In this document: positions 1 through 42,499 of the stretch, one piece after another | How the letters are laid out: every line of letters starts with the position of its first letter | Numbering within the stretch: the first letter of the stretch is position 1 | Assembly: GCA_025617745.1 (NCBI GenBank) | Contig: CM046853.1 | Location: 33,798,625 to 33,862,624, forward strand | Direction of reading: 5' to 3' | Source of the DNA: Heliocidaris erythrogramma | Lineage: Eukaryota; Echinodermata; Echinoidea; Camarodonta; Echinometridae | Length of the DNA stretch: 64,000 nucleotides | Notes under the pieces: model-generated | What the model saw: only the letters and a program-made list of their open reading frames with translations | Told to the model about the DNA's origin: nothing | Databases searched by the model: none | Made by a program: the position numbers and the translations under genes

Positions 1-2540
1 ACTTAGGTTTCCTAATAAATTGGGAAAAGTCAGAGTCGATTCCTAGACGCTGACCAGTTTTTCTGGGGGCAGTGTTAGATATTCAGAATCAATTGGCTCG
101 GCCCAGTCGAGACAGAATACTCACTATTGTCTCAGCGGCTCGCAGGCTGATGCTGGCCTGAACGGTCAGGGCCAGGCAGTGGCTTCAGTTCAAGAGTGTC
201 GGCTCCTTATGAGACCTTTTCAAAGGCATCTCCTCAGGTTTTACAAACCGTGCAGGGATTCTCTCTTGGTCTGGATTCCAGTACCAGTAGAAATCAAATC
301 CCTTCTCTCCCGTTGGACGAATGCAGAGTTTCTCGCGAGAGGCAAACCCTTCCGTACCCCCCTTCGGTCGATCTCAGTCTCGACAGATGCCTCTCGGCTA
401 GGTTGGGGCGGACATTGCAAAGGCAGTACGGTTTCGGGGGATTGGTCTCATCTTGGGACTCTACCCCATATCAATGTCCTGGAATTCATGGCAGTTTTCT
501 TAACTCTGCTTCACTTCAGAAGACGACATTTCAGTCGTTCAGTTCTGATTCTTACGGACAATGTCACAGTTGCGGCTTATATCAATCGGCAGGGAGGCAC
601 TCGTTCTGCCACCCTGGATGCCTCAGCAGCGCAACTGTGGAAGTGGTGTCGTCACATGGCGATCATGCCTGTTGCCTCTTTCATCCCCGGTCAGAAAAAC
701 CTCATTGCGGTCTTCCTATCCCGGGGCAGGTGTCTTCCATCAGAATGGAAGCTCCATCCAGAGGTCTTTTCCCTTATTTACAATTGCTGGGGTCCGCTAG
801 AGGTGGACTTATTTGCGCTCTCAACCACCAGATTCCGAGGTACTGCTCCCGTGTTCGCGACCGGGAGGCTTGGGCCCTGGATGCATTTGCCTTTCCTCCC
901 TTCCAGCTGATTCTGCGAGTCTTGCAGAAGATCAGGGAAGATGGGGCTCGTGTGCTTGTAATAGCTCCCTTTTGGCCCGGGAGGAATTGGTTCCCAGAGT
1001 TAGTGAGCCTTCTGGTGGCTCAACCGTTTCTTCTTCCGTTGAGACCGGATCTGGTGTCGCAACCCCTTTCGGGGATTCTTCACCACAGTCCAGCGTCCCT
1101 TCATTTGACTGCCTGGCCCCTATCGGGGAATCTGCGAGACAGTCAGGTCTTTCTGAAAGGGCCACAGATTTTGTAATGTCCAGTCGTAGGGTTTCTACTA
1201 GGGAAATTTACAATTCCGTCTTTCAGCCTTTTCTCAATGGTGTAAGGCACGGGATCAAACCCCGTCTAAGGCTCCTGTTGGTTCGATTGCGGATTTTTCT
1301 AATCTCGCTGTTTAACAAAGGAAGGTCTATCTCTACTATCCGAGGCTACCGGTCTGCGATCGGTGCCATTCATTCGAGGTTTCCGGATGGCTCGGGGATT
1401 TCTAATTCCCCGCTGTTGAGTGGATTAATTCGGTCTTTCTTTCTGAAACGTCCCCCTCGTACTCAATTAGTCCCGTCTTAGAGTTTGCCTCGGGTTCTAG
1501 AAGCCCTGGCTAAGCCTCCTTTCGAACCGTTATGTGAAGCTTAGCTTCACCATCTTACGTTGAAGACGCTCTTTTTGGTAGCCATTGCCTCTGGTCAGAG
1601 GCGCAGTACCCTTCATGCCCTCTGTCTTACTCCCGGTCATGTTCGTTGGGAGAGAAAAGGTGTCAGATTGATTCCTAAAGCTTCTTTCATTGCCGAGAAC
1701 CAGACGGCTTCTTCTGGCCCTGTTGAAGTTTTTCTTTGTCCACTATCTGACTTCTCGTCAGTGCGCGAGGACAAGGTTTTGTGTCCTGTTAGAGCTCTTA
1801 AATGGTATATTGATAGGACTAAGACACGTCGCAAAGATGATCAGTTGTTTCTGATCACTCGAGAGCCCTTTTCTCCTGCTTCTCTTGATTCCATTTCGAG
1901 ATGGATTGTTGAAGCTATTCGGGCCGCTGGCCCAGAGGCTCTCCTATCAGATAGTAAGCCCCATGCTCATGACACTCGTAGTGTTAGCACTTCTTGGGCC
2001 CTTTTTCAAGGCGTGACGCTTAATGATATTTTGAGGGCTATTGGCGTTCGCCCAATTCCTTCATTTCTTGCTACCTTAGGGATGTCCCTGCAGGTGAGGA
2101 ATTATTTGCGTCAGCCACCTTGAAGGCGGCGGTGTCTTCTCTGTAATCCTGTTCCCTTCTTCACTTAAAACATGCCACCCGGTTTGAATGGGTGCTAGTC
2201 TATCATAATAGGTAGGTATATATGATTTATTGAAGTAAATTTGTAAAATCATTTACTAGATAAATCTTTATACTTATGACCCTCCCTCCTTCCCCTCGCC
2301 TTGCAAGCAACATGTTTTATTACTTGGGGTTGCTCGCAATAGAGGAAGATGGCCGTTGCGTATTACTGCGGGTGAGTGGCGAAGGGGATAACAATGGGAT
2401 TACGGGGGTGCGCACAATATTGTGACTCATTTGTGTTAAAATTCTCGAACGGTTAGCGTAGTCAAGCGACTAGCATAATAGGTAGGTATATAGATTTATC
2501 TAGTAAATAAGAAAATCAGTGCTGATTTTACAAATTTGTG
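1..2540 (+). mobile_element. DIRS-like tyrosine-recombinase retrotransposon, 3' part (fossil)
   Basis: A 5'-incomplete DIRS-family element whose beginning lies outside the window. In order it shows the end of a reverse transcriptase (LGFLIN-like motif at the very start), an RNase H region (about 350-720, with STDAS and LTDN motifs), a following spacer region, and a DIRS-type tyrosine recombinase (about 1150-2120). After the coding part come terminal-type inverted repeats: a segment around 2200-2262 is repeated, partly inverted, around 2470-2535 (shared words ATAATAGGTAGGTATATA and TTTATCTAGTAAAT). That is the end structure expected of DIRS elements. The copy looks broken and old. It lies downstream of the last visible exon of the SULT gene ending at 3693, so it sits either in a long intron or beyond a truncated gene. 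Confidence 0.85.
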
Positions 2541-3692: not shown

Positions 3693-6600
3693 CACCAGTC
3701 ATCACATCCTGGAGGATTTGGGGGAACCCCCCAGGTAATGGGAGAGTTTTCTCGGTGAACCTGGCCAAAGACGTCGCCATATCCTTAGGATTGCGTGCAA
3801 CATACAACACCTTTCAACAACAATAATAACAAAAGTACAGATGAGATGCCCATTACTACATGCTGTAATAATTAACATCAGTGGCAGATTGAGGGGGCAC
3901 AGGGGGTACATGCCCAAAGGCCACATTTTATCTAGCATGTCTTAAGTGCACAGAGACTGGGTTGCATTTATGCCTTCGCTTTTTTCAAAAATCAAGAAAA
4001 GAGCCCTTCCCGTAGTAGAATTAGTGCCCCTCCTGAGATAAAATTGCCAACATTTTTTTCAATCTGATGTGCTCTTGGTTTATATCCGTTAATAAGAAAA
4101 CTTGATGCCCCTTTATTTAGTTACTTGGCCATACATCTTTTTTCTTTTTTGTTTGTTGTTTTATGTTCCATTATGGCGGCCGATAAACCAAATGCGGATC
4201 TTCTAGAGTAGGCCTACTTACGATGAATTTTCCCCCTAAAAAGTCCATAATCCACACTTAAAAGGTTATTAATACAGTGGAACCTCGTTATAACAAACTC
4301 CTTGGGAGTTCGGACCACAGAAATTACCTTGTTATATCGGAAACTTGTTATATCAGGGTGAAAAAAAATAATATAATACTAAGGAGTGAGACCAGCAAAA
4401 TTACCTTCTTATAATGAAAGTTTGTTGTAACAGTGTTCTTTATATGAGAACCTCCAAAGAGTAACAAGTAGGCCTAAGGCATAGACGATGAATCCATTAA
4501 TAAAGAAAAAAACAATGCTCTTATAAAGTATGATTTGATTGTAATGGTATTCTGTACCACGTTCTTGTAGGTGCCTCTTCCCCCTGCCAAATAACGCCCT
4601 TTTGGACGATGCCCTTCCAATTTTGAAGAAAAAAAATTATTACGCCGCCCCTGTATATATATACGTCTGGAGATGATAATCCTTTTTGGGGTTTCTAGGT
4701 TAAATTTTTAACACGCTAAACTTCTACCCGAGCTTTGTTCAATATAGAAATTATTCCCTAATTTCTCAATTTTTTCAGTCGAATCAGGCTGATAAAATTA
4801 GGATTTAAAAAAATCTTGCATGAACGCACCTTAAATCACACCACCAAAGTTTACCGGTATCGGGGGGGGGGGGGGGAGGGGCACTCCGAAGGCTCGTTTT
4901 TTCCGAAAATTATGTAGGTTCACTTTCGGAGATATGAACCTTCGGAATTATTATGAGCTCTAATCATAGGCTTTAATTCATTTACGGATTCATAAATCCT
5001 ATGTCACTTTCGGAACTACGAACCATCGGAAAAACGACATGTAAACGTTAAATCACTGCTTACTTTTGCCTTCTTCTCAATGTCTGGTGGCAGACACTGG
5101 AAGGGCAGATGGGTGACGATGAGCCGCGGGGATGGTGCCTTCTTAATCACGTCAATGAAAGGTGGTTGTTGACGCAGGTGTTCAGGAAGTTGACTTTGAG
5201 ATTGTCCTTGAGGTTGACCTTGAAGTTGACCATCTGGTGAAGGAGATGGGGCAAGAGGTCGGTCTACCAGCAGCATTGCCACGGTACTCATAGACGTGAG
5301 TCGGTTGATCTTGAGGGGATCACCGTCACCGATGATGAGGGAAACAATCTCCATGGCAAAATGGGTGCCTTGCAAATTAGAAACATGGGCCGGGATTTAT
5401 ACAAGCGTACTGTAATCTTAGCACATGGTCCGGTAACACAGAGTTGATTGATTGATTGTATTATGATTAATTTTTGCGATTAATAGCATTGATCACTATG
5501 TCAAATTAATAGCAAAAAATCAATCGTTACGATCAATCGCTAAGCTTTGTGAGGCGGGGCCCAGGTGGAAATGGGGAGATTTGTTCCACTCGTTTATAAT
5601 GCACTGCACACAGAGAAATTTTTACAAAAATTATGTAAAAAGTTATGTTAATAGGAACTCCATAACTTTTTTGTAAAATTTACATAACAAAATGTTTTAC
5701 AAAAATTAAGTAAAAAATTACGTTAAATAGGAACTCCATAACTTTTTTGTAAAATTTACTTAACAAAATGTTTTACCAAAATTATGTAAATTGTTTTGTT
5801 AAATAGGAACTTGTGTAAATTTTAGCTAACAAAATATTCGACGATAATTATGTAAAATGTCATGTTAAATATAGATACTTAAAATTCATGTGTAAATTTT
5901 ACCTAACAAACAATTCCACACATGTATTAATTATGTGGTTGGGCAAATTCAGTTGCCCAATTGTTTCCTTTTTCCTCCAACCTAGGTTACAAAAAATTAA
6001 ACCTGCTTGTTACGTCTTTTTGGGTTTTAACTTATCATTCCTAATTCCTAACATATCCTACTTTAAGCTATCCTATCCTATATCTTAACCTATCCTATCC
6101 TAGTCCTATCCTATCTAGTTGATACAATCTAGTGCAAACTTTTATATACCCCTTATAATTTTTTTATGCATTTGGTGACAGTTAGTGAAATCGGGCCACC
6201 CCAAACCATACGCTACTAAAAATCATGAATATTCATATAAGTGTTTTCCCCAATATTGGGGGAAAAGTACGAAAATGCATATTTTACAAAACCATTTGCA
6301 AAACATTTTACTTAATGACGACAAATTACATTGTGCATGTTAAATAAACTTAACGAAATGGGCAATATTGCAAAATCTTTATGAAGAAATATCTTACAGC
6401 GTTATTTTGCAAGATTTGTTCAGTCAGTTTTACATAACTGTGTATCAAAATCATGTTAATGTCAACTGACATTCGTAAAATGTATTTTATACACAATAGT
6501 TTACAAAACATTTCACTTAATGATGACTTATAACATCTGCATGATAATATTCCCTTTAAAAATACTTGTACTTAACACATTTTACATAATAGGAATTTCT

Positions 6601-9935: not shown

Positions 9936-10773
9936 GGAAGCAAAAATTTAAACAGAATATAAGCTTAGTGATGTCTCTACAATTAAAGTTACTTAAAGAA
10001 AATTATTCTCTTTCAAAAAGACAATATTCAGTTGTCTAATAAAAAAAAATCAATGTTTTCTATCAATCATGATTATAAATTTTTAAGTAAAAAAGAAAAT
10101 TCAGCATTCAAAATTATGTTATGGTAACAATTTCAACAAAATTTGCATTGTGTATTGTACATTCAGTTGCATAACTATGATATTCAAATACATATATGTT
10201 ATTAGAAAATGAACCTTGCAGAGAAACAGTAAACGATACATAAGACGTATCACAGAGTAACACAGCTGAGGTATAGGTAACTCACAAAAGCAAATCAACA
10301 GTCGCCGGCTATAGAGGCAATGTCGTATCTAGGGGTCATGTAGCCTTTTGACAAGGCCCTCGTGACTTGGCTATTTTTCTCGGCAAGTCAGCTAGTAGTG
10401 GCTGCATAACAAGACTAGCCGCCCACCCCGGTGAATGCGCGAGCGAGCGACGTGAGTCCGAGGGCCTTTTGGAACCTGGCCTGTATTGCTTATGTTATCC
10501 TTTGTTCCTAGCGAGGATCTGCTACCTTATAGGTAGTAGCCAATCAGCAAACGTATCTTCGCATGACGTCAGCATACATTTGGTATGCAAATTCGCCTTC
10601 ATCTCGAGCTACCGCGGCCCGTGCAAGCTACTAGTACATCAATCATGGAAAGCAAGCCCCGCAGATACCGTTGTGATTGGTCGATAATCCTCGGTAGGCG
10701 TGTTAGCATACGAATGTCAACTCGTGAATAATTCATATCGGACGATGGAAACCCAGGTTCCAAAAGGCCTAAA

Positions 10774-11022
10774 CACTATGAACATGACGAACAAAGAAGC
10801 GGACAATTTATGCTGCTCCTCATTGTACCCTTCACAATTGCACTGGTTAACAAAAGAACATCCATTCATTGCTATCCTGTAAAAATATGTAGAACAGGTG
10901 TCACATAATAGCAGTGAAGGGATGTCCTTTTGTTTACTAGAGCTATTGTGGAGGGTACAATGAGGAGCTGCATAAATTGTCCGCTCTCTTTGTCAACGTA
11001 AAGTACAAAAAAGTTCATAGTG
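10774..11022. mobile_element. CACTA (EnSpm-type) MITE, copy A
   Basis: A 249-bp element with ends CACTATGAACATGACGAACA and GTTCATAGTG. It is flanked by the 3-bp target duplication AAA (10771-10773, 11023-11025). The related element at 22178-22787 shows the unoccupied site with a single AAA. CACTA termini plus a 3-bp duplication identify the CACTA group. GCGGACAATTTATGC and its complement lie inside both ends. Confidence 0.9.
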
Positions 11023-12099: not shown

Positions 12100-12317
12100 T
12101 TTTATTGATAATAAAAGGGTCAAATAAATGAGTAAATTAGAAAAAATAACTTAAGGAGAGAAAGTGGAATGCATCAGCATTGTATAATTATTCATGTCAC
12201 AAGACTTGGAAAAATTGTGACGTGAATAATTATACAACGCTGATGCATTCCACTTTCTCTCCTTAAGTTATTTTTTCTAATTTACTCATTTATTTGACCC
12301 TTTTATTATCAATAAAA
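12100..12317. repeat. Near-perfect 103-bp hairpin
   Basis: Arms 12100-12202 and 12215-12317 are reverse complements over 103 bp with only two visible differences (both transitions) around a 12-nt loop. No coding region is present. It directly precedes the LINE that begins near 12318. Upstream, 11503-12099 holds no recognisable gene. Confidence 0.9.
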
Positions 12318-20849: not shown

Positions 20850-25975
<5,126 letters not shown>

Positions 25976-31160: not shown

Positions 31161-33154
31161 TTATTCAAATTGGAATTCCAAATCACAACTGGCAAATTTT
31201 TCTCGGTACCATTTGTCAAATGTCTCGTTCTGTGCTACGGTAAACCGTTCTTTCCATGAACCAATCACACCTGCAAAATGGAAAATGGAAAATGAAAATG
31301 TTTTTAAGAAATAAAAATACTTCCTAAAATAGATTAAGTGAAAATATGCGTTATGTTGAATGTATTTCAATTATAGTCTACGATATGATGTAGGGTTTGA
31401 TTTATACCCTATAATAAGCAATATAACGGTTTGATATAGAATATGAAAATAAATTACCAATGCTGACTAGCACAATCTGCGAACTGTTTTGTTTCTCTTT
31501 AATGATGGCGATGATTTACAAAGAGAAATAATTGGGCACATTTTCTTTTCTAAAGGTGATTATGGACACACACGGTAAGGGGAAAAAATAAATATATATG
31601 GGGGATCGTATTGTGAACTGTTTGTTTTCCCCTTAAGGCCAAATTAAATTATCCCCCATTAATAAATCATACACACCTTTCTGCATGTAAGACATCTGGC
31701 CAGCTGCTTTGGTAAGGAATTTGCCATTGTCGGAAGCTTTCTCAATCTTGTCATACGTCTTCTTCATCCCCTCGAATCCCGCTCCTGACACCACCTTCTC
31801 CAGAATCTCGGGCGAGAGAGGGCGTCCTAAATGGTTTGCCACTCGCTGGGCAACCACGGGAAGGTTCTATTGGGATGATGTGTGTGTGGGGGGGGGGGGA
31901 GAGAAAAGAGAAAAAAGTATCGAATGAGTATTCTCATTTCAGATATTCTTCCTCCGAATAACAAATTTATTAAAATGATTTATTTTAGAATAAATTGGGA
32001 GCTAAAATAAAAACAAAAAGGGATATGATCAATGAAAGGAAACTTTTAAGACTTAAAAAAAAACACACCCCAAGACTCCCAAACACATGTTATCGCCGTA
32101 TCATATTTGATTGTAGACGAAAGTGAATATGACGAGTTGCGAAAATGATCTACATGAGCGCCATCTAAACTGCAAGCAACAGCAACAGCTTCTACTGGGC
32201 GTTGTGGCGTGCGCCTGTAATCCAGCTAACAGTGGAAGTTATCACTATGAACACGATGACAAAGAGAGCGGACAAAATATACAGTTCCTCATTGTACCTT
32301 CCACAATTGTTCTGGCAGACAAAAGAACATCCCTTCATTGCTATTATGTAAAATAAGTAGAACAGGTGAACATGCATGTGACACCCGTTCTACATACTTT
32401 TACATAATAGCAATCAAGGGATGTTCTTTTGTCTACCAGAGCAATTGTGGAAGGTACAATGAGGAGCTGTATATTTTGTCCGCTTCTTTGTTCGCCATGT
32501 TCATAGTGTATAAACTGATTCAGCGGACCCAGGTTCGAGACTGAGTCACGTCTTTCGGATGGTGACGTTAAAGGTCGGTCCCAGACGTAAATAATCATAT
32601 CTGATTGATACACGTCTGTAAAAACCCAATTACACACACACACACATTCTACGAATCTAAAAGTTTAGCAGAAGATTTCTTCGTCCACTCCTGTAGACCT
32701 CCCCAGTTTCTTTCTGTCTGCCGCTTTAGCATCACTAGTAATCATACATCACTCACATAAAATATCATATGCATTATATATGAAGTGAATTGTTTCATAA
32801 TGAATGCCATCTCATTTCCTCTTGCTCTATATCTACATGCATATAATTTTCTTATTTTCTGTTAATCTGTATTCTTTGTCTTTGTCTCTCGCTGTCTCTC
32901 TCTGTCTCTCTCCCTTTCTTTCATATTGGCCTTGTTATTCATTCCTTCAAAATGAATGCATCAATATGATTTTCATTTTCTACCCAGCCGTTGGAAAGAG
33001 ATTAAAAACTAACCATTTTCATTTCCTCAAATTTCAAGAACAGAACGTTGTCCTCATTTCGCTTGTTCCAGTATCCCATCACGTGATCATACCAGGGTCC
33101 GAATGAGCTATCTGAAATACAGAATGAGAGAGGGGAGAGAGAAAGGGAGAGAGT

Positions 33155-34229: not shown

Positions 34230-36605
34230 CTATCTATCTATCTATATTTATCTATTTATCTATTTTATCTACCTATCAATCTATCAATCTATCTTTCTAT
34301 CTATCTATCTTTTTATTTATATATCTATCTATTTATCTGTCTATCTATCTCTCTCTGTCTATATGTCTATATATCTTCACTATCTATCTCAACAGGTCGG
34401 TGGAGGAGCACGATCTAGAAATACCTTGAGATACCCATCACATCACTTTCTATGACAATGGTTAACGCTTACTCTAGCTTTCTTTTCAATATCTGGTGGA
34501 AGAAGCTGGAAGGGCATATGACATCCTATCATTCTCGGAGAAGGAGCATTCTTAATCACATCCATGAACGGCCTGGGGACGAGTGGGGGCGGGGCATCAC
34601 CGCTCTGTTGCTGGGCGTCAACCGTCAGTGGGCGGTCCATAGTTAACATGGAAACGGCTGATAGGTGGGTAGTTCGGTCGATCTTCATTGGGTCACCGTC
34701 TGCGAGGATGAGTGACGTCATTTCGACAATGAAGTGGGTACCTGCAAGTGAAAAGAACCCTCAAAATTAATGAATGTATATTATGTATATTATTTTCACT
34801 GGCCAACATTTTTTTTTAAATTAGATAATTAAAAATTAAAATGGGAAATATAGATGAATAATAAGTCGATGGGCTAATGTCCGCTTTACCAAGTCCCTCG
34901 GAGAGGACTAAAGGCTATAGGTCCCCCTGGTTGCATACTTAATGCATAATTATATCTGTTTTCTTAGCAGTCAGGTAAAATAAACAATCAACTGATTATT
35001 AAAAGAAAAACCCCTAAGCAAATAAACAGGAATCGAGTTGCCTTTTTTAAATCTCACTTCACTAAAAAAACAATACTCGAAATACATCTCGGTAGCCGCT
35101 GAGGTCTGATTCTAACCCAGGCGATCTCCAACTCGTCTGGGATATGAACATCTAGGGGTTTCGCATTAAGATGGTGCCTGGCGTATATCGCGACACCCCC
35201 ACCTTTTCTCTCAGATCTTGGACGCGAAAAAAGATCAAATCCAGGCATACTATTAAGTTCAGGTGGCTGGTCAGCATGAAACCATGTTTCGGTGATCGCG
35301 GCAATGTCAATGTTGTTGTTTACAATCAAGTTAAGTTCGTCAACCCTATTGTTGAGAGATCGCGGGTTACATAACAAGAATGACGGTAATTGGATGACTG
35401 GTTGCTTCTTTGTTTTGCTAACGAGATTCACTTGCCTTGTCCGCTGTACTACGTTAAAATGGCGAACATGTCGATCCCTGATAATGGTTGTAATACGACG
35501 TTTGATACGAGTTCCTCCTCTACGTCCTCTTTTCTTTCCTTTCCCTGTCACACTTTTCCATTTTTTTGCGTTACATAAAATTCCATATTCTTGGAGAGTA
35601 TTTAAAGTAGATTCTTTTAGTAAACGAAGAAGCTTGACTGGGGAGGAATTTTTAATTTGTAAACAAATTTGTAACACTGGGAGTAATATGCCGAAAGATT
35701 TGTTTACAAATAGATTCTTTTGGTTTAAAATTAGATGTGTTTCGTATAGATGCCAAATAAGAGGCATTGTACACAATTCTATGACGTACTTGCTGCATTT
35801 CTGTATAACAGGCGTAATTGGCATACACTATGAACACGGTGACAAAGAGAGCGGACAATTTATGCAGCTTCTAATTGTACCCTCCACAATAGCTCTAGTA
35901 GACAAAAGGACATCCCTTCACTGCTATTATGTGACACCTGTTCTACATATTTTTACAGGATAGCAATGAATGGATGTTCTTTTGTTAACCAGTTCAATTG
36001 TGAAGGGTACAATGAGGAGCAGCATAAATTGTCCGCTTCTTTGTTCGTCATGTTCATAGTGATAGGACCTGCTCGTTGCCCGTACGGCAAAGATACGATA
36101 TGGAGTCCTGTTAGCACAATGTAGTAGGAAATGTACACATATATGAGGAAGAAAACGACTCTCATTTTGATGATATTCATGACGAAAAGACGGTTAAAAA
36201 GTACTCACAACTGCACCCCAACTCTGACGAAAGTATAATCACAATCCTGTCCACTAAAAACTTAATAAATGATGATAAAAACCTGCATTTTGAATACTAA
36301 GAACAGAAGATAAAAAAATTGTAGTGTCGCAGCTATGAAGACATTTGACCAAACTGATTTGAAGAGGATTATTGAGAAGATAATTAGGAGATCAAATATG
36401 TATACTAGGATAGATAAAAACATATACAATCACCTGATTTGGGATAGGTGCATACCCAGATATCGTCTGGTCTCACTTCGAACGTTTTGAGCGCATCCAG
36501 GCTAGATTTTAGGACTACTCCTGGCATTCTCAGACCTTCGTACTCAAAGAATTCGAAAACTCCTGGCATTTCAGGATTCTTGCTTTTTCCACCTGGTTCT
36601 GCCAT
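31161..36605 (-). CDS. Cytosolic sulfotransferase copy 3 (complete, six coding exons, 318 aa)
   Basis: PAPS-dependent SULT family enzyme. Coding exons on the minus strand are 36605-36434, 34741-34473, 33656-33539, 33111-33014, 31866-31677 and 31270-31161. All borders are GT/AG with the same phases as copy 2, giving one open frame from MAEPGGKSK to EFQFE-stop. It has TYPKSG before GTHFIVEM, a catalytic-type His in GCHMPFQLLPP, the PAPS segment YVARNPKDVIAS, WYDHVMGYWNKRNEDNVLFLKFEEM, and the C-terminal [19 protein letters not shown]. The exon 2 insert (VDAQQQSGDAPPPLVP) is shorter than in the others. It is more divergent from copies 1 and 2 at the N-terminus. An AATAAA lies on the minus strand about 40 nt after the stop. 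Introns hold LINE, CACTA and SINE insertions. The substrate is unknown. Confidence 0.95.
32193..32646 (+). mobile_element. SINE with 7SL-RNA-like head, split by a CACTA MITE
   Basis: The segment 32196-32242 reads GGGCGTTGTGGCGTGCGCC, then TGTAATCCAGCTA. This is close to the 5' Alu domain of 7SL RNA, including its pol III box region. After the CACTA insertion (32243-32508) the sequence continues with GGACCCAGGTTCGAGACTG, which corresponds to the next part of the 7SL/Alu head. A SINE body follows (CACGTCTTTCGGATGGTGA, GTTAAAGGTCGGTCCCAGAC), with an ACACAC tail near 32632. Without the insertion it is about 185 bp. It lies in intron 4 of SULT copy 3. The 7SL relation is judged by eye. Confidence 0.6.
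32243..32508. mobile_element. CACTA (EnSpm-type) MITE, copy B
   Basis: A 266-bp element with ends CACTATGAACACGATGACA and GTTCATAGTG, flanked by the 3-bp duplication TAT (32240-32242, 32509-32511). Its centre has a local palindrome around GAACAGGTG..CACCCGTTC. It is inserted in the SINE at 32193-32646. Confidence 0.9.
33110..33190. repeat. (GA)n-rich tract
   Basis: A GA-rich run immediately upstream (on the gene strand, a CT-rich tract before the acceptor) of SULT copy 3 exon 4. It may serve as an extended polypyrimidine tract. Confidence 0.7.
33860..33978. repeat. (TATC)n and (GA)n microsatellites
   Basis: Tetranucleotide ATCT runs, then a short TA run, then about 40 bp of GA, in intron 2 of SULT copy 3. 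A matching (TA)n plus (TATC)n region is at 34190-34390. Confidence 0.85.
33987..34115. repeat. Hairpin with hammerhead-like core between microsatellites
   Basis: Arms 33987-34024 and about 34077-34115 are inverted (CACCTGCAGACGTAGCTGTTGG and complement). Between them lies GCTTTTAATAAGC followed by TTTCGGGCACTTCGCCCTTC. On the minus strand this reads CCGAAGAA-GGGC-GAAGT-GCCC-GAAA, the layout of a hammerhead core with stem II. The two core-like words at 27873-28365 and 44430-44456 are similar. Confidence 0.65.
35054..35790 (-). mobile_element. LINE endonuclease N-terminal fragment
   Basis: The minus strand encodes KGKKRGRRGGTRIKRR, LPSFLLCNPRSLNNRVDEL, DIAAITETWF and RSERKGGGVAIYARHHL, the start of an apurinic-type endonuclease of a CR1/L2/Rex-type LINE. 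It breaks off near 35054; the catalytic C-terminal half and the reverse transcriptase are absent. It lies in intron 1 of SULT copy 3, beside CACTA copy C. Confidence 0.8.
35826..36061. mobile_element. CACTA (EnSpm-type) MITE, copy C
   Basis: A 236-bp element, CACTATGAACACGGTGACA to GTTCATAGTG, flanked by the 3-bp duplication ATA (35823-35825, 36062-36064). It lies in intron 1 of SULT copy 3. Subterminal GCGGACAATTTATGC is shared with copy A. Confidence 0.9.
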
Positions 36606-37356
36606 TCTGGGAATGAGATAGAAGAAAGTAAGTGCGATTCATTATTATAGTAATGGAATAAAATAATATCGTGTATTATCTTTGTAGAAATAAATAGGTT
36701 TTCAGACATTGTTATTGATATCGTATGTACTAGAAATCCAGGTAGTCAACCTATATTGAGTTTTATACACTCTAGCAGAAAGAACATTTTACATGCATTC
36801 ATATAACATACATAGAATTTAGAAAAATCCAGTACCATCATGAGCCTTTGGCTCTACACCACATTTTGGCACTTATTTAGCCTACAAGTGAGCTTAGAAA
36901 ATAGGAAGTAAGAAAACATAATGATAATGAATAAATAAGTAAATAAAATAAATACTCTTAAACAAATTATCAGTGGGGGCACAAGTCTAAAAATATTTAT
37001 AGAATGGGTTTCAGAATCCCTGCAATCTCATTGGTCAAGAGCTGTGCCTTGAATTTTACTGGCCTGCACGTTCCATATCAATAATTATTACGATTACTGA
37101 CGATAGCCAGTGTAAACATGCTATCGATATTTATTTTAGCGAGTGCGAGAGTCTGAGCTGAGAGCCGCGATATACGACTTTTTAATGACGGAGAATTGCA
37201 AGATTTGAGACAAAATTCAGATGTTAATGATAGTTGACTTCGGATTCTGATGGTAAGCCCAATAAAATCCGATTATAGGTCTACCTGTTTAAAAACAAGC
37301 AAACTGAAAAGGCGATTAAATGAAAATTAGTGCAGTGTGAAACTGAAACTTCACTT

Positions 37357-37404
37357 TCTTCAGTACCGTACGCTGCACTGCACTGCAGTGCATACGGTAC
37401 GGTG
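37357..37404. repeat. Short palindrome
   Basis: CAGTACCGTACGCTGCACTG and its near-complement face each other around GCACTGCAGTGC. Otherwise 36606-37780, upstream of SULT copy 3, shows no gene or repeat that I recognise; the promoter of copy 3 would be expected in its right-hand neighbourhood. Confidence 0.6.
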
Positions 37405-37780
37405 ATTCACTACAGTCTACAGCGCAGCATACACTGGCCTGGTCTGGGCTGGCCTGGATTATTGGCTGACCAGACTTAAAATTTGTTGATGCAAGACTAG
37501 AAGTTCTCTTTGCATTAATTCTTTAAATTACTTGCTTTAATGTAAATAGACTAGATTATATCTAACTTGGGCTTGTTGTTGACATGAGTGACAGATTCTA
37601 AAATGGAAAAGTTGACAGTCATGACAGTAGTTAGCTTAGCCTAGGCTTAGGGTCAAGACTCTAACACTGAAATAAAATGAAATTCTGAAATTTAACCTAA
37701 TTGGCCAGATTTTCAGTTCTCTATGGAAGTCATTAAATTTCTAAAATCTATTTTTGATGCATGGAAATTATTTACCAGTG

Positions 37781-37888
37781 CCATGCGTCCGGTAAATTTG
37801 AGCCATGCGTCCGGTAAATTTAGCCATGCGTCCGGTAAATTTCAGCCATGCGTCCGGTAAATTTTTTTACCGGACGCATGGCTCACTT
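37781..37888. repeat. Four 21-22-bp direct repeats plus one inverted copy
   Basis: CCATGCGTCCGGTAAATTT starts at 37781, 37803, 37824 and 37846. The inverted copy TTACCGGACGCATGG follows at about 37868-37882. Every unit contains CATGCGTCCGG. Confidence 0.95.
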
Positions 37889-37952
37889 TCACTGGATGCA
37901 TGATTGGGAAAAAGTTTGATTTTCACTTTTTTTTTTTACCCATTCTATAAAA

Positions 37953-38117
37953 CAGATGATGCACAGGTATTTTTCGTGGGTCGGTAGGAATTGTGTACCC
38001 TCGGTACCTCTGAATTTTGTCCGAAACCCACTCGGCTGCGCCTCGTGGGTTCAGACAATTCAGAGGTACCTTGTGTACACAATTCCTACCGACCCACTCC
38101 AACCTGTGCATCATTTG
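37953..38117. repeat. Long imperfect palindrome
   Basis: Arms of about 75-80 bp run from GATGATGCACAGG to its complement CCTGTGCATCATTTG. Inside them are GGGTCGGTAGGAATTGTGTA and GGTACCTCTGAATT in both arms. Because it is palindromic, both strands have an open frame giving almost the same peptide (MMHR, WVGRNCV, YTIPTDP). I do not take it as coding. Confidence 0.85.
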
Positions 38118-38299
38118 TATACTGACGAACAAAAAATTGCAAAACAACCATCAACAAAATTTTAAAAAATAAGTGGTAAAGAAATCATCACCCCCGGAGA
38201 CATTATTATGTCACTATTTGGCTGAGGAGAGGGCACATACCCCCCCCCCCCCCCCCCCCCCCCCCCCACCCGAAGTCACTACTGCATGATTTCATTAGG

Positions 38300-38922
38300 G
38301 TATAATTCGTTACTGTTTTCACGAAGTGACGGGAGTAAGGAAAATCGCATATTTTTTCAAATTTGAGTTTTTTGCATTTTTGGACACCATTCACTAACAT
38401 CTTGAACCTCACAAAGTTTCAGATCATAATAATGTCTAATTATGTAACTATGGCGATAACGTCAACAAGAAAATACCTAGTAAAAGGATTTTCTGTTTTC
38501 ACGAAGTGACGGCTTACAGCCGTCCCTTTTGTTTTAAGTGCGCGGCTGAGACCCGTCACTTCGTGAAAAAAAAAAAAAAAATTTGTGTTTACGCGCAATG
38601 ACGCTTAGGGCTAAATGCGCGGCTGAGAGCAGTCGCTTCGTGAAAACAAATCATAAGCGCGTCCTTGAATTTTGTGTTTTCACGAAATGACGGTAGGTTT
38701 ACAGCTCATTTCCCCCAAAAATATTTTTAAAAAAGGGAAATAATTAAACATAGAACTAAACATTGAAATGTGGTCTACCCCAGGATATAAAATTTATTCA
38801 ACCTTCATACACTAAAGAGGATGAGATTATGCTTTAAAACTTTGAAAGCGATTTATTCAAAACTAACTTTCTTTTAGTTGCACGCTGAGTCGTCACTTCG
38901 TGAAAACAGTAACGAATTATAC
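38300..38922. mobile_element. TIR element with clustered TTTTCACGAAGTGACG sites
   Basis: A perfect 32-bp terminal inverted repeat at 38300-38331 and 38891-38922, beginning GTATAATTCGTTACTG and continuing TTTTCACGAAGTGACG. The inner half of the TIR recurs inside in both orientations near 38497, 38552, 38632 and 38676. Spaced inverted sites of this kind look like transposase-binding sites. There is no coding region. A poly-C tract of more than 30 bp (38236-38268) lies just outside the left end. Confidence 0.85.
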
Positions 38923-39919
38923 TATTAATACATGGTTGGGAGTGCGTTGGTGCGATCTGGCAACACAAAGGTTTTTATCGTGGTGTACTATACGCACGAG
39001 GCGCGATCGCACTAATGCACGAACTCACAACCATGTATTGATAGTCTTATAAAATGGGTCGGCAATATGATTATGAAGTCTATAAAAATGGTTGCGAACC
39101 CCATAGAAAGAGTCGCACAGTCATGGAGGCTACCATTTGCTTTCCTGGATGACATCACAGAAGCGCAGCCAACAAAAGTCATGCGCGTTTCAGTGCACGC
39201 ATGTAATCCCTGCGCTAAAATGACAATTAAACTACGCGATATCATTGCGTTTTAAGTTTGCACGCACCAGAGGTACGCGTACGCGCAGCTCAGCAGTGGT
39301 TTAGAGGCTTTTTGCCGTGTGTTATCACTTTTTTTTTGCACGGTCACATGGTGTTATTTGACCAATCGGGATGGCTACATTCTTGAACTCGTTTTATAAA
39401 TAATATTAATATATGGTTGGTGCGATCTGGCAACACAAAGGTTTTTATCGTGGTGTACTTTACTCACGAGGCGCAAGCCGAGTGTGTTTGACACCACGAT
39501 AAAAACCTGCGTGTTGCCAGATCGCGCTAACGCACGAACTCACAATTCACAACCATGTATTAATAGTTTTATAAAACGGGTCGGTAATTATGATTATGAA
39601 GTCTATAAAAATGGTTATGAAACCCAGAGAAAGCCAAGAGTCGCACAGTCATGGAGGCTGCCATTTGCTTCCCTGGATGACATCACAGAAGCCAACAAAA
39701 GTCATGCGCGTTTCAGTGCGCGCATGTAATCCCTGCGCTAAAAAGACAATTAAACTACGCGATTTCATTGCGTTTTAAGTTTGCACGCACCAGAGGTACG
39801 CGTACACGCAGCTCATCCGTGCTTTAGAGCCTTTTTGCCGTATGTTATCACTTTTTTTTTTTTTTTTTTTTTGTTACTTGACTAATCAGGATGGCTACAT
39901 TCTTGAACCCGTTTTATAA
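38921..39919. repeat. Tandem pair of [hairpin + TTATAAAACGGGT element]
   Basis: Two units with a period of about 520 bp. Each has a hairpin bounded by ATTAATACATGGTTG and its complement (38921-39045, about 39404-39567). Each hairpin is followed by a roughly 350-bp element with ends TTATAAAACGGGT and ACCCGTTTTATAA (39047-39399, 39569-39919). The two copies are closely similar, including the GTCGCACAGTCATGGAGGCT block. A truncated third right end is at 41540-41587. Confidence 0.85.
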
Positions 39920-40214
39920 TACTTTTTATATGACACCTAATTAGATCCTTGCCATTTGATTGGTTGTTTGATGTTGATCATTTGTCCCATTTAACGATTG
40001 CGTCATCAATCGTGCAAATTTGATCCATTCACCGTGCAATTTTGGATCCATACGAAATTGTCCATCGCACTCGCGACCACCAACACGTCTACATACGCAA
40101 AAACGACTTGCCTTTGCAGCGCGCATGCGACTATCAAGTACATTGTCGGACCGCCGAGGCCGCGCGCTCAGCATCTAACCTCTGACATGGTTGGCCGGTA
40201 AACAAAAAAACAAA

Positions 40215-41394
40215 ATGGCCATGCCGCAGTTTGTTGTCATGACAGACGAGGATTTGAAGGAACTAATTGATGGTACTGATTCTTCTAACACAAAAAAAAA
40301 AAAATCAAATACGCCGTAAGCCGTCTGGATGCATTTGCGGTATTCGTTGGGACGTCTCTATCTGAAGTAGAAGCGCTGTCGGATGAAGAGCTCGACAAAT
40401 TTCTGTCCCGATTTTTCGCTGGACTGAGGAAATCAGACGGTACTCTGTACACGAAGAAGTCAATGCTCGGCATCAGGTACGGACTACATCGTCATTTTAA
40501 GACCGTAAGAGATGGTGATATTACCAAATCTGACAGGTTTCATCGTAGTCACGAGACCTACAAAGCAATGATATGTAAATTGAGGCAGGCAGGCGATAAG
40601 TAAGGAAGACCACAACACCACAGGGCTTGCAGAACAAAGTCTTCTTAGCATTATGATATATTTTGCCAACAGAGGACGTGAAAATCTACGTGACATGAAA
40701 TTACTTTGTACTGCAAACAGATGAGCAGAATCTTCGACACTCCGTGACATGCTTCCCAAATCCAGAAGAAAAAACGAGGATGAAGAATGTAGTGGCTATA
40801 CATGTACGAGATCCCAGGTTCTTCCAGCTGCCCTGTCTCAACATTTCTGGCTGACAAGCAGCATTACATCCTGCAGTGGACTGTTTATGGCAGCGTCCTA
40901 AACCTACAGCTCCCGCAGAGGGTCCATGGTACTGCAACTCTCCATTAGGTGTGAACAATCTTGGTAACAAAATGAAAGAAAGGCAGCGGGTTGCGCAAAG
41001 AATTACACAAACCACAGTCTTGGGACCACCGTCCTGGATCGTGCCGGTTTCGCTAACCGTGATATCATGTCTGTTACTGGTCACAGATCGGAAACTTCAC
41101 TAAAACACTATGCTTCTACAAGCGATGACAGGAAGAAGCAAATGAGTAGCAAGATCGCTTGCAAAATGATGCAAGAAAATGTGCCAACACCGTCTAGTGC
41201 ATGCGTCTAACGACAGCGCTAGTACCAACACTAAGAGTAGGCCTACATCTCAGCCTGCTAAGCCTGTACAAGATGTCGCATTAGGGGATCAGGATGACAC
41301 ACTGGATTCACTCTTGACATTGTCTCAAGAACAACTAATTCTACAAGAATCCAACTCCAGCAAATCCAGCATTTCAATTTTTATGGACCCGTAA
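40215..41394 (+). pseudogene. Crypton-type tyrosine recombinase (DUF3504-like), disrupted
   Basis: Starts ATGGCCATGCCG and runs to a stop about 20 bp before the unit's right end, about 390 codons long. Readable parts are IKYAVSRLDAFAVFVG, LDKFLSRFFAGLRKSDG, TKKSMLGIRYGLHRHF, IYFANRGRENLRDM (the RGRE segment typical of Cryptons), YTNHS...TTVLDRAGFANRDIMSVTGHRSETSLKHYA (H, H and the nucleophile Tyr), and an acidic Ser/Gln-rich tail. Changes of frame and in-frame stops are present, one at an A-run near 40295, so it is not expected to be active. The Arg usually following the first His is not visible. It could instead be an exapted relative, but the breaks argue against that. Confidence 0.75.
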
Positions 41395-41676
41395 CTTTCT
41401 ACAATGTCAGCATTTTTAGGTGTCATATAAAACAAATAATGAATGTTTTTTTCATTCGTGCAATGGACAGAATATTTCATTCGGTGAAAGATGAAATAAT
41501 TATGTCCATTGCACTCATAAACATTCATTATTTGTATATTTTTGCATGGTCTCGTGGTGTTATTTGACCAATCAACCCATTTTATAATAGACAATAAATT
41601 GCCTGGCAATAATTTATCATCTTACTCTTTTACTGTACTTAAATATTTCGGTTACCCCATAGAGATACAAGCCTAA

Positions 41677-42038
41677 TATAGTATGTATCTCTATGGGTTA
41701 CCCCACGTACGCCTATTTTAGAGAATATGGTTACGTAACCATTATCTTTATACATGTACTTCGCCCTGTGATCATGGTGATCATTAACCAATACAAATCT
41801 TTACAACACACGTCTATCGCGTGTACCATGGATATACATGTCTCCTAAACATAATATAGTATGTACATATAGTATGTATCTCTATGGGTTACCCCACGTA
41901 CGCCTATTTTAGAGAATATGATTACGTAACCATTATCTTTATACTTCGCCCTGTGATCATGGTGATCATTAACCAATACAAATCTCTACAACACACGTCT
42001 ATCGCGTGTACCATGGATATACATGTCTCCTAAACACA
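41677..42038. repeat. Direct duplication, about 190-bp period, with hairpin
   Basis: GTATGTATCTCTATGGGTTA through CATGTCTCCTAAAC occurs at about 41677-41855 and again at about 41868-42038, nearly identical. A small inverted copy GGTTACCCCATAGAGATAC precedes it (41650). It forms the spacer of the Crypton composite. Confidence 0.85.
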
Positions 42039-42499
42039 CGTCGAGTCCTACATAGTATACAAATAATGAATGTTTATGAGTGCAATGTATCATTTCATCT
42101 TTCACCGAATGAAATATTCTGTCCATTGCACGAATGACAAAAAACATTCATTATTTGTTTTATATGACACCTAAAAAGAGCTATCCTTCTCATTTGACAT
42201 TTTATGAATTAAGAAACAAGAGTGAAGGGACTTACATTTTGTTGCTGAGCGCGCGGCCGCGGCGGTACGTCAATGTACTTGATAGTCGCATGCGCGTTGC
42301 AAAGGCAAGTCATTTTTGCGTATGTAGACGTGTTGGTGGTCGCGAGTGCAATGGACAATTTCGTATGGATCCAAAATTGCACGGTGAATGGATCAAATTT
42401 GTACGATTGATGACGTGATTGTTAAATGGGACAAAATGATCAACATCAAACAACCAATCAAATGGCAAGGATCTAATTAGGTGTCATATAATATACTCT

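Follow-up and report, generated by a model that had tools for sequence, protein, structure and literature searches.

Candidate Crypton-type transposons with a one-sided terminal repeat and a long 3' palindrome in the sea urchin Heliocidaris erythrogramma

We analyzed 64,000 nucleotides of the genome of the sea urchin Heliocidaris erythrogramma (C1:33798625-33862624, where C1 is contig CM046853.1 of assembly GCA_025617745.1, 1.064 Gb in 26 contigs), referred to below as the window. It contains two oppositely oriented units with matching ends, one bearing the remains of a tyrosine recombinase (YR) gene (unit A) and the other lacking a gene (unit B). We think it likely that both units belong to one Crypton-type transposon family, which is moved by its tyrosine recombinase along the path of end joining and reinsertion outlined below. 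It has been an open question how the ends of animal Cryptons are defined; a survey of 2011 found no terminal repeats in them (PMC3212892). The ends described here are asymmetric, with a repeat on one side and a repeat plus a long hairpin on the other, and may show how this class of transposon, which is poorly understood, finds its own borders. Hundreds of copies, seven YR families, gene-less partners and empty sites are available, so that this end structure is directly testable.

Units A and B are separate insertions with asymmetric ends

A pattern search for the word TATATGACACCTAA gave four exact matches in the window, at 39927 (+), 41416 (-), 42161 (+) and 42477 (-), and no further match when up to two mismatches were allowed (chance expectation 0.75). 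All four words are preceded on their own strand by an additional T, giving TTATATGACACCT. The initial annotation had described these four 14-bp words together with arms of about 250 bp and a hairpin beside each unit, and exact matches, alignments and self-comparison confirmed all three. One pair of arms (39926-40173 versus 42491-42243) is 95.6% identical over 249 positions and the other (41413-41538 versus 42177-42056) is 93.7% identical over 127, while the hairpins are self-palindromes of 77% beside A (41432-41535) and of 67% beside B (42051-42166). The identity between A and B extends across the inverted copy of the word and the whole palindrome up to its outer limit (41538 in A, 42056 in B), and no further. 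The palindrome is therefore part of the unit, and the repeat is therefore terminal on one side only. Thus the words are shared as described, but they are not plain terminal inverted repeats (TIRs), as the palindrome lies outside the 3' copy. Likewise, the words that bound the originally proposed unit of 39927-42490 are real, but the units are longer because they include the hairpins, A ending at 41538 and B having its far end at 42056.

Unit A (39926-41538, +) is a decayed recombinase-bearing copy from which some of the 3' untranslated stretch is missing, as is the palindrome tip. It begins with the 5'-terminal repeat TTATATGACACCTAA (39926-39940, +), continues with the broken YR gene (40215-41207, +), pieces of which lie in several frames, and then carries the inverted copy of the repeat (41416-41430, -; both repeats located by word search) directly before the palindrome (41432-41538, +), which was delimited by self-comparison and ends in TTTGTATA. 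Unit B (42056-42491, -) is a gene-less derivative with an internal deletion that inserted independently, and its palindrome has also lost the tip.

The two units had been viewed as one 2.56-kb foldback, possibly a single Crypton caught in an inverted duplication. The opposite orientation of A and B at a distance of 517 bp and the 95% identity of their arms would fit such an origin, as would the comparison of the 5' ends with an intact element of the same family (L010), in which 8 of 228 gap-free columns set A and B together apart from L010 while A alone differs at 5 and B alone at 3. However, the homology between A and B ends at the element borders on both sides (the ends of A were checked letter by letter), and the 517 bp between them is other DNA. 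A carries a gene that is absent from B, and the inner 64 bp of B, which match the 3' part of L010 at 98.4%, are absent from the present A; B is thus an internal deletion of a YR element and not a copy of the present A. A nearest-relative test drew on 20 further 5' ends of the family from the fetched loci. Six of them are closer to A than B is to A (L001 with 5 differences in 221 positions and L071 with 7 in 248, compared with 10 in 248 for B), and another comparison shows five to be closer to B than A is to B. Since each unit has nearer relatives elsewhere, the eight shared sites are the mark of a subfamily and A and B are separate insertions. We therefore give the inverted duplication practically no credence.

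The DNA between the units includes a head-to-tail repeat of 185 bp (41676-42036; about two copies).

Intact and gene-less copies share these ends throughout the genome

Genome-wide, the exact 14-mer occurs 302 + 255 times (557) versus 7 + 5 times (12) for a control read backwards. A search of the genome with the N-terminal piece of the recombinase produced 343 candidates; 150 of these received a score and appear in the list of matches. Among the matches listed, the best after the window itself was L010, which holds an intact element of 2.08 kb (L010:1115-3195) with an open YR frame of 443 amino acids and with ends as in A and B. When the L010 protein was used in a tblastn search, the pieces found in A covered residues 1-442. 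The fragments TNHSL.. and VTGHRSETSLKHY are readable in A, as are the HxxR and GHR..HY motifs, although the arginine of HxxR reads G. The Crypton-like recombinase of the initial annotation is thus present in pieces, and the gene reads as a pseudogene broken over several frames. Pfam returned nothing above the cut-off for the broken pieces of A, with one sub-threshold match to QRICH1 and two other sub-threshold, chance-like matches. A PDB search with the C-terminal piece yielded no match, and among viral contigs no relative was found (30 stretches considered, none confirmed, and none from a further search).

For gene-less copies we sampled 20 of about 29 pairs of plus and minus words, picked by eye from 100 listed places on contigs C1 and C2. 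At 17 of these 20 places, a palindrome that ends in TTTGTATA comes after the 3' word; of the others, L059 has kept its entire palindrome but ends differently (TGTACA), and L061 and L062 are near-identical neighbours that are cut short. Across the genome, a pattern spanning the palindrome from arm to arm matched 231 + 273 times and a pattern of tip plus end 318 + 350 times, each with no match in the control; the listed tip-plus-end matches include at least one other repeat (GGCTGCGCCCCTCATGAAAATAG.., at C1:8122790 and C1:8349553). In many copies the two words stand only about 250-330 bp apart. Gene-less copies are abundant and appear to be non-autonomous derivatives that keep both ends. Copies with and without the recombinase exist elsewhere between the same words, which bears out the suggestion of an element type that is based on a recombinase and has the same ends as its non-autonomous derivatives.

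The same architecture recurs in seven recombinase families

Three further families, F44 (L039-L046), F39 (L047-L054) and F43 (L055-L058), were chosen for their many open copies among the YR matches listed. Copies within these families, 95.8-100% alike, align up to sharply defined borders, and a self-palindrome marks the 3' border in each family. These borders coincide with the ends in 7 of 8 fetched loci of F44, where the 5' match of L040 begins inside the element, and in all fetched loci of F39 (8/8) and F43 (4/4). Representative copies begin with TTATA.., with a few varying in the first bases (e.g. TTGTA in L044), and, read by eye in these three families, an inverted copy of the first 10-16 bp precedes a palindrome ending in TGTATA. 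Both ends were found in one locus for six families, namely the family of units A and B (family A), F62, F46, F44, F43 and F39. The seventh, F58, was pieced together. Its 5' end is seen in L016, and its 3' end was deduced from two observations, namely the element that abuts L010 and a match to the tip-plus-end pattern located downstream of an F58 gene at a distance of about 2 kb. Palindromes near two YR matches of 35% identity (C2:24241244 and C2:12355080) were listed by the pattern search, and their letters could not be read. Asymmetric inverted repeats and a 3' palindrome were present in all seven families examined. Judged from these sequences, the architecture is common to the seven families and the border words are family-specific. 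Other copies of the recombinase do have other border letters, which the initial annotation had named as a finding that would speak against its element, but the architecture around them is the same.

A side observation in the seven YR families is the motif ATTGG (CCAAT on the other strand), which lies about 33-36 bp inside the 5' end (e.g. L010:1115-1174, L055:2753-2812) and is perhaps a promoter element.

The recombinase is conserved between families

The catalytic residues of tyrosine recombinases each have an established role. In an alignment of seven intact proteins, R173/R175/R179, K206, H293-x-x-R296, H319 and Y328 (L010 numbering) are invariant in all seven, the alignment not deciding which of the three arginines is the catalytic one. 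Pfam matches above the cut-off were obtained to DUF3504 (PF12012) for six and to Phage_integrase (PF00589) for five of the seven proteins. DUF3504 is described as Crypton-derived in PMC3212892, and it is by this domain link rather than by placement in a YR tree that we tentatively group the elements with Cryptons. Amino acid identity between the seven families is 36-63%. Nonsynonymous divergence (dN) between families ranges from 0.31 to 0.74, while synonymous divergence (dS) exceeds the range of the method. As dS is far above dN, the recombinase was kept under selection while the families diverged. In most intact elements of 2.0-2.2 kb the YR frame (417-464 amino acids) is the longest one, shorter frames lying outside this comparison; the exceptions are L044 and L056, where the longest frames in the fetched stretch belong to other, reverse transcriptase-like genes.

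Insertion was exact in one case, and target sites share letters

The comparison of empty sites proposed in the initial annotation could be made for a copy of F43. The joined flanks of L057 match two paralogous empty sites, L045 (98.3% over 241 positions) and L030 (96.7% over 240). The empty site reads AATGTTAGT up to the point of insertion and CTGTTGCC after it, and nothing was duplicated or lost save for one ambiguous T. L055 agrees with exact insertion at a lower identity (about 81%), and the flanks of L074 and L065 are too diverged to judge.

For a wider view, flanks were tabulated at 44 sites, from which L078 and L010 were dropped as they stand on the 3' end of another element. The remaining 42 comprise 18 sites of family A, 7 of F44, 6 of F46, 4 of F39, 4 of F43 and 3 of F62; absent from the table are L040 and L049-L052 (end word not matched), L011, L012, L015 and the F58 loci, and the row of L029 was counted with a 5' start about 10 nt too far out. 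At least three matching bases on both sides occurred at 7 of the 42 sites, which falls within the range of shuffled flanks (mean 4.9, highest 10) and thus gives no sign of a target duplication. The sites do share letters. An A stands at position -8 in 33 of 42 (expected 13.1) and a T at +2 in 37 (expected 13.3), while +1 is A or C and +3 is A or G in 39 of 42 each. Together with T at -2, the signal is A at -8 and MTR (M, A or C; R, A or G) at +1 to +3; copy A itself lies in a run of T. Read by eye, these letters appear to resemble the joined ends of the element itself, TTATTTGTATA followed by TTATA. In addition to the two of 44 tabulated sites at which one element stands on the 3' end of another, this arrangement is seen in the second F44 copy of L039 and in the pair R2-R1 described below.

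These data bear on a conventional origin, in which an ordinary TIR transposon with a DDE transposase, or a miniature inverted-repeat transposable element (MITE), received a YR gene by insertion. Short inverted repeats and the many copies with closely spaced words are what such an element would offer. In contrast, the 42 sites show no target duplication, the empty site is exact, the ends are asymmetric and the same build recurs in seven YR families. We regard this origin as very improbable, and the reading of the initial annotation, which had named a gene inserted into an unrelated MITE as a finding that would refute it, stands on that point.

Mismatches in the 3' palindrome may favour one strand

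The palindromic segments are 173-197 nt long, and the 3' repeat lies about 170-200 nt from the end of the element. Changes in the stem between families are mostly matched pairs, with 32 matched versus 12 broken in four overlapping comparisons (5, 11, 10 and 6 matched versus 1, 2, 4 and 5 broken), three of which share members. As repair can also keep palindromes alike, matched changes do not prove selection on the stem.

On the lower strand, the loop of the predicted hairpin reads C-GNA-G (N being G, A or C) in all seven families and C-GCAA-G in the gene-less repeat R2. A two-base mismatch, TC/TC on the upper and GA/GA on the lower strand, lies 26-31 nt into the stem in six of the seven families, being part of a three-base mismatch in F46 and appearing in F43 only with a shifted gap. 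It occurs again near the tip in family A, F62, F58, F46, F43 and R2, whereas the tip of F44 has other letters and that of F39 is offset. GNA loops are unusually stable in DNA, as are tandem GA pairs. In predicted folding energy the lower strand is better in seven of nine sequences, by 0.5-3.4 kcal/mol, and worse in two (A and F58). Because this comparison is mixed, a strand preference would rest on the mismatch pattern. The lower strand as the better folder would provide the element with a built-in strand choice, which the energy model does not settle.

These features recall the attC sites of integrons. There a tyrosine recombinase uses an imperfect palindrome in which unpaired bases render the two strands unequal (PMC3053210), and it recombines the folded bottom strand. 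We raise as a tentative and rather doubtful idea that the recombinase here recognises one folded strand of the 3' palindrome, which would make the reaction a eukaryotic counterpart of that of attC. The integron system is bacterial and its integrase is encoded in cis with attI, outside the cassette. The likeness seen here lies in the strand-unequal palindromes. It raises the question whether folded single strands can serve as substrates of a eukaryotic recombinase.

A proposed path of movement by the recombinase and its main rival

According to the path that we propose, an intact element of about 2.1 kb, made up of the 5' repeat TTATATGACACCTAA, the YR gene, the inverted repeat copy and a palindrome of about 170 nt ending in TTTGTATA, would be bound at both ends by the recombinase, which would join them, probably into a circle. 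Joined ends, in a circle or in head-to-tail copies, would read ..TTTGTATA and then TTATATGACACC. Joining would let the 3' arm and the 5' repeat rebuild a mirror of the internal junction, creating a large near-palindromic recombination site; indeed, CATTATTTGTATA joined to TTATATGACACCTAA nearly mirrors the internal junction TTAGGTGTCATATAAAACAAATAATG. The circle would then be inserted, with neither duplication nor loss of host bases, at AT-rich sites that share letters with the junction of the element. Gene-less copies, which keep both ends, would be moved in trans.

The main rival is that Helitron2 or Helentron elements captured a YR gene once, so that the recombinase is cargo and RepHel moves everything. 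It keeps this rank because Helitrons are present and because the families were found through their recombinase. The layout itself speaks for it. As described for Helitron2 (PMC3627910) and HINEs (PMC4067079), the ends are asymmetric inverted repeats of 8-15 bp with a hairpin directly after the 3' copy and without target duplication, and the likeness, which also covers the T start and tandem copies (these two sources and PMC5148889), amounts to the same end layout. The dimensions differ, however: our palindromes measure 173-197 nt whereas HINE hairpins are given as 5-10 bp, and the 3' repeat there lies 20-60 bp from the end. A 5' hairpin using the 5' repeat, as in Helitron2, is not evident here, since the first 40 nt of the seven families have predicted folds of 0 to -4.3 kcal/mol and form no stable hairpin with the whole repeat. 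The target letters seem to differ as well. Helitron2 and Helentrons insert between TTTT and T or C, or within TT; copy A does lie in a T run, but over the 42 sites the preference is for A at -8 and for MTR next to the 3' end and not simply for TTTT^T.

Captured genes have a precedent in the Fanzor1 genes described within Helitron2, and the genome holds 103 matches to Helitron_like_N, many of them in open frames of more than 1000 amino acids. As Helitrons with open frames occur, rolling-circle machinery is available to the elements. The characteristic enzyme of Helitron2 and Helentrons is a Rep-Helicase, while the elements here, at 2.0-2.2 kb, consist mostly of the YR gene and leave no room for one. 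The conserved catalytic positions in all seven proteins, with dS far above dN, speak against a recombinase carried as cargo, with the proviso that the families were found by way of this gene, and the interior of B is the YR element's own 3' part. None of 99 listed palindromes on C1-C3 lies within 20 kb of the 27 Helitron matches there, which is weak evidence given a random mean of 0.47. Of the 99, 7 are within 3 kb of one of 26 YR matches, where random placement gave a mean of 0.08 and at most 2 in 2000 draws; by position, five of these are the recombinase's own 3' end and two are neighbours (E3, which lies beside A, and C2:68508768).

Several points weigh against movement by the recombinase. 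All seven families were found through it, so that its presence in every family partly reflects how they were chosen. The repeat R, represented in the window by R1 and R2, is built in the same way, and none of the YR families found is its partner. For the other 92 of the 99 palindromes, no YR is listed at a distance of 3 kb or less; non-autonomous copies would be expected to look like this, which does not prove that they are such. A single insertion underlies the exact empty site, and the circle and the action of the recombinase on the ends are deduced from sequence rather than from biochemistry. On balance, we consider capture by Helitrons unlikely and movement of the elements by their own recombinase the probable course. 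The layout raises the question whether rolling-circle enzymes and tyrosine recombinases have arrived at the same arrangement of repeat and hairpin.

Unit A was itself considered as a Helentron-like element with a captured YR, an assignment given up when L010 and the F44, F39 and F43 copies showed the layout as that of YR elements themselves. Many of the 103 Helitron_like_N matches lie in open frames of 3000-4000 amino acids, and the genome is suited to a comparison of rolling-circle with YR elements.

Relation to known Cryptons

The elements share with CryptonA (PMC3212892) a YR gene with a DUF3504-related product, the existence of non-autonomous derivatives and a proposed circular path, and they resemble Cryptons in their lack of target duplication. 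That survey, from 2011, describes Cryptons as having neither TIRs nor long direct repeats and animal Cryptons as being without terminal repeats, in agreement with the remark in the initial annotation that Cryptons are not known for terminal inverted repeats. As that survey saw none in animals, the present seven families, with their asymmetric inverted repeat and long 3' palindrome, look like a departure from known Cryptons; whether the name should stretch to them we leave open. No account of a Crypton with a 3' palindrome was found among the listings returned by searches of the open-access literature, Repbase not being covered. Tec elements have inverted repeats. According to PMC3212892, MarCry-1_FO, with TIRs of 16 bp, and Tec likewise contain a YR gene, but they carry a DDE transposase in addition, and MarCry has TA target duplications. 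A precedent for recognition by termini is offered by the vertebrate non-autonomous Cryptons Eulor5/6 and those of salmon (PMC5753468). The layout could be used by annotators to seek non-autonomous Cryptons among unclassified palindromic repeats.

Other elements in the window

A gene-less element with F46 ends, E3 (36997-38121, +), lies upstream of A. At its 3' end, 355 bp match an intact copy of F46 with 98% identity, and for the first 74-81 bp the identity is 80-89%. The 5' word predicted from its palindrome (37952-38118), TTATAGAATGGGT, has one exact match in the window besides the 3' copy, at 36997, and by these similarities E3 is an F46 derivative. The lower strand of its palindrome has a predicted fold of -68.3 kcal/mol (z = -17).

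The repeat R is present three times. R2 (39406-39919, -; 3' end approximate) is gene-less, with TTATAAAACGGGT at its 5' end and ACCCGTTTTATAA plus a palindrome at its 3' end. R1 (38917-39399, -; 3' end likewise approximate) is a second copy that stands head-to-tail behind R2, and R3 (41539-41587, -) is the 5' end of a third, with A inside its T run. The joined flanks of A count 8 T, compared with 9 in R1. The 3' end of R1 adjoins an unrelated TIR repeat at 38300-38922, with perfect inverted ends of 32 bp (GTATAATTCGTTACTG..), which is perhaps a TA-targeting MITE inserted into R1.

A large palindromic repeat family has three copies in the window (10770-10999, 32239-32513 and 35826-36061) that are about 75-98% alike; one of them directly adjoins a repeat of about 430-480 bp, and by eye the family is unrelated to the YR ends. 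Another palindrome, of 94%, occupies 12100-12317. Open frames at 47-2123 (+) resemble what we take to be a DIRS-type retrotransposon with its own tyrosine recombinase. Three related open stretches at 5016-5396, 24214-24633 and 34443-34760 (-) presumably resemble repeated exons of sulfotransferase genes.

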